DNA from: Bacillota bacterium
GTDB taxonomy: Bacteria; Bacillota; UBA994; UBA5500
Reading direction: 5' to 3'
Assembly (NCBI GenBank): GCA_029781045.1
Contig: JAKOXL010000029.1
Span: 1 to 64,000 of the forward strand
DNA length: 64,000 nucleotides
The position numbers and the translations under genes were made by a program. Below are positions 21,408 through 40,106 of the stretch, in pieces (position 1 is the stretch's first letter; each line of letters opens with the position of its first letter). The notes beneath the pieces were generated by a model that saw nothing but the letters and a program-made list of their open reading frames with translations, had not been told where the DNA came from and did not search any database.

Positions 21408-21590
21408 CCGGTGAGGTAGAGGCGCGGTATTTAAGAGTCCTTGGTGGAGCCTGAGAAGCAGTGAGGCCAGGGAGGGCGAAGTGCCGCCGAAGCGATCGCA
21501 TCCTCAAGTGCGGTTAGCTGGGGTTGCAGTGAGGAACTGCATCACTGTCTCAGTTAACAGTCCCGGTTAGCTGAGTTGAGCTACTTCATT
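21408..21590 (+). ncRNA. Lysine riboswitch (L-box)
   Basis: Conserved blocks GAGGTAGAGGCGCGG, AAGAGT, GGAGCC, AGGGAGGGCGAAGTGCCGCCGAAGCG, GGTTAGCTGGGGTTGCAGTGAGGAACTGCATCACTGTC; P1 TGAGGTAG/CTACTTCA. Confidence 0.92.
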
Positions 21591-21622
21591 TAGGGAAAGT
21601 GGGGAGGTGTAGGGTTATCTAC

Positions 21623-25467: not shown

Positions 25468-26038
25468 TTACTTTTTGGCTAATTGCTCCTGAAGCTCCGC
25501 CAGAAACTCTGGGGAGTTTAATGGCGTGATTGCATAGAAAGTCTTCTCCGTGAAGATGACCAAGGCCGGCCGTGTGATGTCCTGGGCATAGACCTTACCC
25601 CGACCTATGCCAGCCACGTTGAAGGTACCGTTGCGACGGTTACCAAGAGATTCGCCCACGCGCAGGGAGAGAGCTGGTAATAATATTTCTCCATCTCTTT
25701 CGCTATTGCGATTCGCCCACGCGCAGGGAGAGAGCTGGCAGCTTTTCAAAATACTCCACCGCCGTTATCTCCTCATAAGGAATGGTAATACCACGACCGC
25801 GGGTGATAGTCACTCCCGTGTCGTTCAGCAGATACTCGTAGTCACCCACGACATAGGTGAAAAGCATAACAGTTGCTACAATCGCTAAGCCCACGAAAAT
25901 CCAAAGGGGGTTTTGTTCACGCCTGCCGAATCGCACAGCCGCACCTCCTATCCGATATGGTTGGCCTCCATCCTTAAGCATAACATACAACCAACGTCCA
26001 GAACACCGAAGGAACTCCATGTCGCCACCTAGCGTCAT
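25468..26038 (-). pseudogene. PH-like (bPH) membrane protein gene interrupted by a 61-bp insertion
   Basis: Frames 26038..25703 and 25749..25468 join after removal of 61 bp into ...EYFEKLPALSLRVGESLGNRRNGTFNVAGIGRGKVYAQDITRP..., matching paralogue at 37998-38435. Confidence 0.85.
25649..25738. repeat. 29-bp direct repeat / 32-bp unique insert / 29-bp direct repeat (61-bp period)
   Basis: GATTCGCCCACGCGCAGGGAGAGAGCTGG at 25649-25677 and 25710-25738; insert taataatatttctccatctctttcgctattgc. Confidence 0.98.
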
Positions 26039-37997: not shown

Positions 37998-38435
37998 TTA
38001 GTGTCCTTCTAGCCTGGCTTGCACTTGCTGCACAAAGTTGACGGCGTCTGCGGGTGTAATGATGTAGATACTACTCTTAGTCTTGATCACGATAGCCTTC
38101 CACTTGGTGTTGAGGATGTAAGCTTTAACCCTACCATACTCCTCAGAGCTAAAGTCGCCGACCCAGGTACGGAAACCGTCTTTACCGAGTATCTTCCGCA
38201 TCTTCGGAATGCGCTCCAATAGCTGCACCTCGTCTATCTCACTGAAAGGAATGAGACGGTTCTCCGGCGGTATGATCACTAATGCACCACCGTGAGTTAT
38301 CTGCACACCTTCGGTTGTCACTGAGTACTCCAAATCCATATCTCCGGCTACGGCCACGTAAGTGAACCAGCCAATGGGGATCAGCATGAGCAGAATTAGG
38401 GTTTTCAACCAACGGGGATATTCTTGTTCTGGCAT
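37998..38435 (-). CDS. PH-like (bPH) membrane protein, intact paralogue of 25468-26038
   Basis: Two TM-like start, LEYSVTTEGVQITHG...SSIYIITPADAVNFVQQVQARL. Confidence 0.65.
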   Translation of the reverse strand: MPEQEYPRWLKTLILLMLIPIGWFTYVAVAGDMDLEYSVTTEGVQITHGGALVIIPPENRLIPFSEIDEVQLLERIPKMRKILGKDGFRTWVGDFSSEEYGRVKAYILNTKWKAIVIKTKSSIYIITPADAVNFVQQVQARLEGH

Positions 38436-39082: not shown

Positions 39083-40106
39083 TTAGAACAGTTTGGCTAC
39101 AGCGTGTTCGATATCTGGTTCCACTATGTGTAAGTCACGAATCTCGCCCAACTCGGCCATGAGGCGTAGCAGCTCATTAGGAGTGTGACGGGAGCGATCA
39201 AACTTGACTAGGGCGCGGGTTTCGTTCTGCCACGTAACTTGCAGTCCGTTGATCAAGGTATGGGTGATGATTGGTCTGCTGAAGTCGACGATAAGGGTAC
39301 TCTCTGCCCCGATTTGAGAGTAAAGGTGTTCTATACTGCCATCGAGAAGGATCTTCCCATGGTTGATAACTATCACCCGTCGGCACAGCTGCTCTATATC
39401 TCGTAGATCGTGGGTGGTTAACAGTATGGTAATGCCCTGCCGGTTAACCTCAAGTAGAAACTTGCGTATGGCCTGTTTAGCCACCACATCCAAACCAATA
39501 GTGGGCTCATCGAGAAAAAGGATCCGAGGCGCATGCAGCAGGGCGGCTGCGATTTCGCCCCGCATGCGTTGTCCGAGAGAGAGCTTGCGCACCGGCGTCT
39601 GCCAAAACTGGCTCAACTGCAGCAGTTCATCAAAGGTACGGAGCATGGATTTATAGCGTTTTTCTGGCACTTGATACATGGCTGCCAATAGTTCAAAAGA
39701 CTCCTGCAGGGGCAAGTCCCACCATAGCTGACTACGTTGGCCAAAAACGACGCCGATCTGACTTACCACTTGCCGCCGCTCCCGTTGGGGACTGCGGTCC
39801 TGTAATACGCATCGGTATAAACCTCCTTTCTTGCCGCCGCTCCCGTTGGGGACTGCGACCTAAAACACTAACCAACCCGGCCGTAGGATGTAGGATGCCA
39901 GTTAGCATTTTTATGGTGGTGGACTTGCCTGCGCCATTGGGGCCGATGTAGCCCAGGAACTCTCCCGGAGCTATCTGAAAACTGATACCATCGACGGCGG
40001 TGACCGTCTTTCCCCTGCGGCTGAGCAGACTGCGGAAAGTGCCAAAGGGTCCCGGCAGAATCTCAGGTACGAAGAACTCCTTTCTTAGGTTTTCAACTGC
40101 AATCAT
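39083..40106 (-). pseudogene. ABC-2 type transporter ATP-binding gene interrupted by a 61-bp insertion
   Basis: 40106..39732 (Walker A GPNGAGKSTTIKML) and 39769..39083 (LSLGQRMRGEIAAALLH, LFLDEPTIGLD) join as ...LGRSPQRERRQVVSQIGVVFGQRSQLWWDLP... when 61 bp is removed. Confidence 0.9.
39769..39857. repeat. 28-bp direct repeat / 33-bp unique insert / 28-bp direct repeat (61-bp period)
   Basis: CTTGCCGCCGCTCCCGTTGGGGACTGCG at 39769-39796 and 39830-39857; insert gtcctgtaatacgcatcggtataaacctccttt. Confidence 0.98.

Follow-up and report, generated by a model that had tools for sequence, protein, structure and literature searches.

Probable off-target integration of type I-E CRISPR spacers at three sites in a Bacillota genome

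What places 33 bp of DNA between two copies of a 28-bp stretch of a protein-coding gene, and does so with the same lengths elsewhere in the genome? The question is raised by a frameshifted membrane-protein gene, here termed site A, in the window (the whole 64,000-nucleotide stretch of DNA from a Bacillota bacterium that was analysed). The 29-nt sequence GATTCGCCCACGCGCAGGGAGAGAGCTGG occurs there twice, at 25649-25677 and 25710-25738, as an exact direct repeat with a spacing of 61 bp. The preliminary description had noted this offset and the unique insert between the copies, and both were borne out: the insert has a single occurrence in the genome, and its GC content is 33% against ~52% for the window. 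As one boundary G is common to repeat and insert, 28 + 33 and 29 + 32 are equally valid readings of site A. The suggestion that assigning this G to the insert gives the same 28-bp duplication and 33-bp insertion as at a locus near 39.8 kb, here termed site B, is upheld by the geometry of that locus (39769-39857), which is unambiguously 28 + 33. The two sites comprise:

25468 to 26020, minus strand: bPH_5 (PF10882) membrane-protein gene, assigned by Pfam, frameshifted by site A and open without the 61 bp
25649 to 25676, minus strand: site A, copy 1 of the 28-bp target duplication, an exact repeat at spacing 61; position 25677 is the ambiguous G
25677 to 25709, minus strand: site A, 33-bp insert, minus-strand sequence GCAATAGCGAAAGAGATGGAGAAATATTATTAC
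25710 to 25737, minus strand: site A, copy 2 of the 28-bp target duplication, an exact repeat
39083 to 40106, minus strand: ABC-transporter ATPase gene split by site B, with the frameshift after the Walker A motif
39769 to 39796, plus strand: site B, copy 1 of the 28-bp target duplication, an exact repeat with similarity to the type I-E repeats of kin
39797 to 39829, plus strand: site B, 33-bp insert, GTCCTGTAATACGCATCGGTATAAACCTCCTTT, with 32/33 identity to a phage minor-head gene
39830 to 39857, plus strand: site B, copy 2 of the 28-bp target duplication, an exact repeat

The window also carries a lysine riboswitch (RF00168, 83 bits) at 21409-21591 on the plus strand.

Since 61 is 3 × 20 + 1, both insertions shift the reading frame of the gene they interrupt. 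Excision of 61 bp had been predicted to restore the gene at site A, and it does so: the result is a single open 163-aa frame with a bPH_5 domain (Pfam E 8.5e-12). In alignments with the paralogue at 37998-38435 (30% identity) and with a protein from the same genus, this frame runs through the site with no gap. The same operation at site B yields an intact 320-aa ABC-transporter ATPase frame. Its closest relative in the genome collection, from an uncultured Bacillota genome, shares 61% identity over residues 1-320, and the top relatives match over their full length with no interruption, the insertion being absent from them. With both genes open in the absence of the 61 bp and aligning to relatives, the duplicated target at sites A and B is ancestral host sequence.

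A third unit, site C, is intergenic:

C15:121513-121601 (L192:1513-1601): site C, 28 identical bases and a 33-bp insert, CCATGTCTGCGTGTAACATCGTGCCGTCATCAA, at a spacing of 61

Its neighbours, identified by eye from their translations, are a signal-peptidase-like frame on one side and an rbgA-like GTPase frame on the other. Because the duplication includes a purine-rich stretch just before the GTPase start, the rbgA-like gene was probably spared.

That 28 + 33 insertions of this kind are present is confirmed. Across a sample of 864 kb (43% of the 2.01-Mb genome), sites A, B and C are the only repeat pairs of at least 23/28 at spacings of 60-62, and all three are spaced by exactly 61. At 3/3 sites the duplication is 28 bp, the length of one I-E repeat, and at 3/3 the insert is 33 bp, the length of one I-E spacer; the three inserts are mutually unrelated and have no common termini. 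Sites A and B are also the sole exact direct repeats of at least 17 nt at spacings of 20-400 in the 234 kb of contigs C13 and C24, and simple arithmetic gives ~1e-12 as the number of exact 28-mer repeats expected by chance at one fixed spacing in 64 kb. Near-tandem repeat families of 147-196 bp with GTAGGGGCGAGGCG and GGGCCGGTCACCGACCGGCCC palindromes were seen as well, on short contigs and at contig ends (L056, L065, L067 and L069).

The insert of site B was traced to a phage gene. Exact 33-mer searches of viral contigs gave no match; piecewise searches of viral contigs identified IMGVR_UViG_3300010285_000060 (L081), which agrees with the insert at 32/33 bases and whose next-best place scores 18/33. 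The source gene encodes a phage minor head protein (phrog_115, E 2e-90) and follows portal and terminase genes. If the collection is taken to comprise about 1e11 bases, a rough estimate puts the probability of a single 32/33 match by chance at <1e-6. On the source strand the junction reads CCAG|GCCCTG, that is, AG lies upstream and G is the first base of the insert. The sequence AGG is a known I-E PAM, and the AG|G flank fits it, in an orientation that was chosen independently by repeat similarity. With up to 3 mismatches allowed, the insert has no other copy in this genome, nor any in 398 further genomes of the same phylum. A Shine-Dalgarno sequence and ATG within the insert were considered and set aside as coincidence, the source being internal coding sequence.

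No source was found for the other two inserts. For site A, where a protospacer search had been proposed, searches with similar pieces, with a synonymous-codon pattern and by a scan of the genome collection returned chance matches of at most 25/33 or none, BLAST against phages and plasmids gave no convincing source, and 0/14 other genomes of its class contain the insert. The search for site C covered phages and plasmids by BLAST, and again gave no convincing source.

Repeats of 28 bp with a period of 61 are the geometry of type I-E systems, and such systems are present among close relatives of the host. A genome of the same genus (G002) has two, whose Cas1 proteins are both recognised by the Cas1e model TIGR03638 (E 1e-108 and 7e-122), and one of the same family (G003) has a single system with Cas1, Cas2 and an array. 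The arrays of these kin (contigs C52 and C70 of G002, C25 of G003) have 28-bp repeats, 33-bp spacers and a period of 61, the spacer length being 33 bp in 29/30, 9/9 and 6/6 cases (44/45 in total). G is the first base of 9/9 spacers in one G002 array and, when they are oriented by repeat similarity, of inserts A and B as well. The G002 systems carry fused proteins: in one, Cas2 is joined to a DEDDh (DnaQ-like) exonuclease (L049:4188-5165, contig C52), and on contig C186 a type I-E Cas2 is joined to the N-terminus of a Cas3 helicase-nuclease (L050:3-2513). Cas2-Cas3 fusion is usually a type I-F association.

The preliminary description had likened the site A target to type I-E repeats. The I-E repeat of the host itself is absent from the assembly, which leaves that part of the comparison without its object; the repeats of kin do match. 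All 28-mers on either strand of the sampled sequence were scored against three pooled repeats from G002 and G003. Target A (minus strand) scores 45, in the top 0.02% of genomic 28-mers (p about 2e-4), and target B (plus strand) scores 42, in the top 0.11% (p about 1e-3); for both, the maximum of similarity within +/-5 positions falls exactly on the register of the duplication. The alternative register that the common G permits at site A has no score, which favours the 28 + 33 reading from 25649. Resemblance is weaker for target C, which scores 35 (p 0.03) at its own register and 46 at +2 bp. When the leaders of the kin arrays and the DNA upstream of the targets were compared by eye, no obvious common motif was seen.

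The host genome itself presents a different CRISPR inventory. Its assembly (G000) consists of 57 contigs and is rated 100% complete; a search that found its positive controls in G002, G003 and control genomes detected no I-E Cas2 (PF09707), Cas8e or I-E array in it. Its sole Cas1 is broken and of non-I-E type, a 153-aa frame that covers positions 2-174 of PF01867 and has 2 stops. This frame is the truncated Cas1 of an operon on contig C24 (L003:1-5480) that also encodes a Cas3''-like HD protein, an unrecognised 553-aa protein, Cas7/DevR and a Cas5-like protein. The repeats of an array on contig C19 are 37 bp long, with a period of about 72-76, and a remnant of this 37-bp repeat lies just downstream of the C24 operon. 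The sites described here are not a resident I-E system or array. A type I-E system may have been lost, may lie on an unassembled or unbinned contig, or may have arrived on a mobile element; CRISPR loci are commonly left unassembled or unbinned.

We consider that sites A, B and C very probably arose when a type I-E Cas1e-Cas2e complex integrated spacers off target. According to this model, the complex, loaded with a 33-bp prespacer (at site B, one from a phage head gene), would attack both ends of a 28-bp chromosomal stretch with a chance resemblance to an I-E repeat, through two staggered strand transfers. Gap repair would then duplicate the 28 bp, giving a repeat-spacer-repeat unit of 28 + 33 + 28, a net gain of 61 bp and a frameshift. 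The I-E system would have been present at the time of insertion, and since been lost or left unassembled or unbinned. The enzyme, the strand-transfer mechanism and this former presence are the parts of the explanation that we infer. It should be noted that the assembled host genome is without I-E cas genes or an array, that the searches found no source for inserts A and C, that target C is poor at its register and that the junctions are known from assembled sequence, not from reads, all of which count against a type I-E origin. The earlier reading of site A as an independent CRISPR-type integration with I-E geometry is nevertheless supported, given the 28/33/61 dimensions of the kin arrays, the agreement of the target register with kin repeats and the phage-derived insert at its sister locus.

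Could another machinery have produced the same units? The Cas7/DevR-type system is resident in the genome, with its operon on C24 and its array on C19, but its repeats are 37 bp and not 28, its period of about 72-76 cannot explain 61, and its Cas1 is broken. The constant 28/33 geometry of the three sites also speaks against the adaptation module of some other subtype, type I-F being expected to give 28 + 32 = 60; integration by either route is very unlikely. Target duplications flanking inserts are typical of transposition in general, and a transposase-like element or a repair event (an IS remnant, template slippage or patch repair) might duplicate 28 bp. However, the 33-bp inserts are unrelated and lack common termini, and the lengths agree at all three sites. 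Insert B comes from the interior of a phage gene, and slippage is not expected to supply unrelated phage DNA. This explanation has already been largely refuted, and we regard it as extremely improbable.

An equally improbable account appeals to the assembly, a fragmented draft that probably derives from a metagenome, in which errors of assembly or binning might arise. Yet chimeric joins are not expected to yield 28 + 33 three times with no other close pair near 61 in 864 kb, nor is there a reason why an artefact should resemble an I-E repeat at the register of the duplication. A one-spacer array would have the repeat-spacer-repeat form observed, and the sites might on that ground be what is left of ordinary I-E arrays after decay to a single spacer. 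The repeats of sites A and B are host coding sequence, however, and the genes are intact without one copy and the spacer. These restored open frames refute array decay for both sites. Moreover, neither leader nor cas genes are adjacent and the repeats only half-match those of kin, and we attach almost no weight to this explanation. A type I-E Cas1e-Cas2e complex acting off target remains the reading that we prefer.

Off-target integration has reportedly left putative natural cases, described by Nivala et al., in Yersinia pestis and Sulfolobus islandicus. When overexpressed, the I-E Cas1-Cas2 of E. coli integrates off target to form ‘neo-CRISPR’ loci (Nivala, Shipman and Church, 2018, Nat Microbiol 3:310, as cited in PMC11788318 and PMC9456107). 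As reported, such loci resemble the present sites in that a 33-bp prespacer enters a repeat-like 28-bp chromosomal target to give a solitary repeat-spacer-repeat unit outside arrays. Unlike them, the units described here are natural, with three in 43% of the genome, two of them within genes and one with a spacer of traceable phage origin; the lineage is Bacillota-like, and its assembled genome shows no I-E system. Ectopic spacer acquisition in type II-A arrays of Streptococcus thermophilus (PMC7999890, PMC5338259) also places a spacer at a non-standard position, but there the insertion is at a true repeat of an array that already exists, and the subtype differs. The I-E arrays of kin share with the sites the 28-bp repeat, the 33-bp spacer, the period of 61 and, in one array, spacers that start with G; there, however, many near-identical true repeats stand beside cas genes, whereas here single units consist of host gene sequence. 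The case is strong that these sites are a natural instance of the off-target integration already published, with most of its testable features and unusually clear evidence.

Off-target integration is known from the laboratory, but examples from nature in which the foreign spacer can be traced seem to be rare. Clean and repeated scars, two of them in protein genes, show a mutational cost of CRISPR adaptation as well as a route by which new one-spacer loci arise, and the 28 + 33 + 28 signature can be searched for in any genome, including those without type I-E, as a footprint of lost immunity. The I-E-positive relative G003 has no such sites in 227 kb. A bolder reading, which we consider possible but doubtful, is that this lineage once had a promiscuous I-E Cas1-Cas2 that was a genuine insertional mutagen, scattering phage-derived spacers over the chromosome and breaking genes before the system was lost. 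If that were true, the 28 + 33 scars would be a record of past immunity and of past phages.
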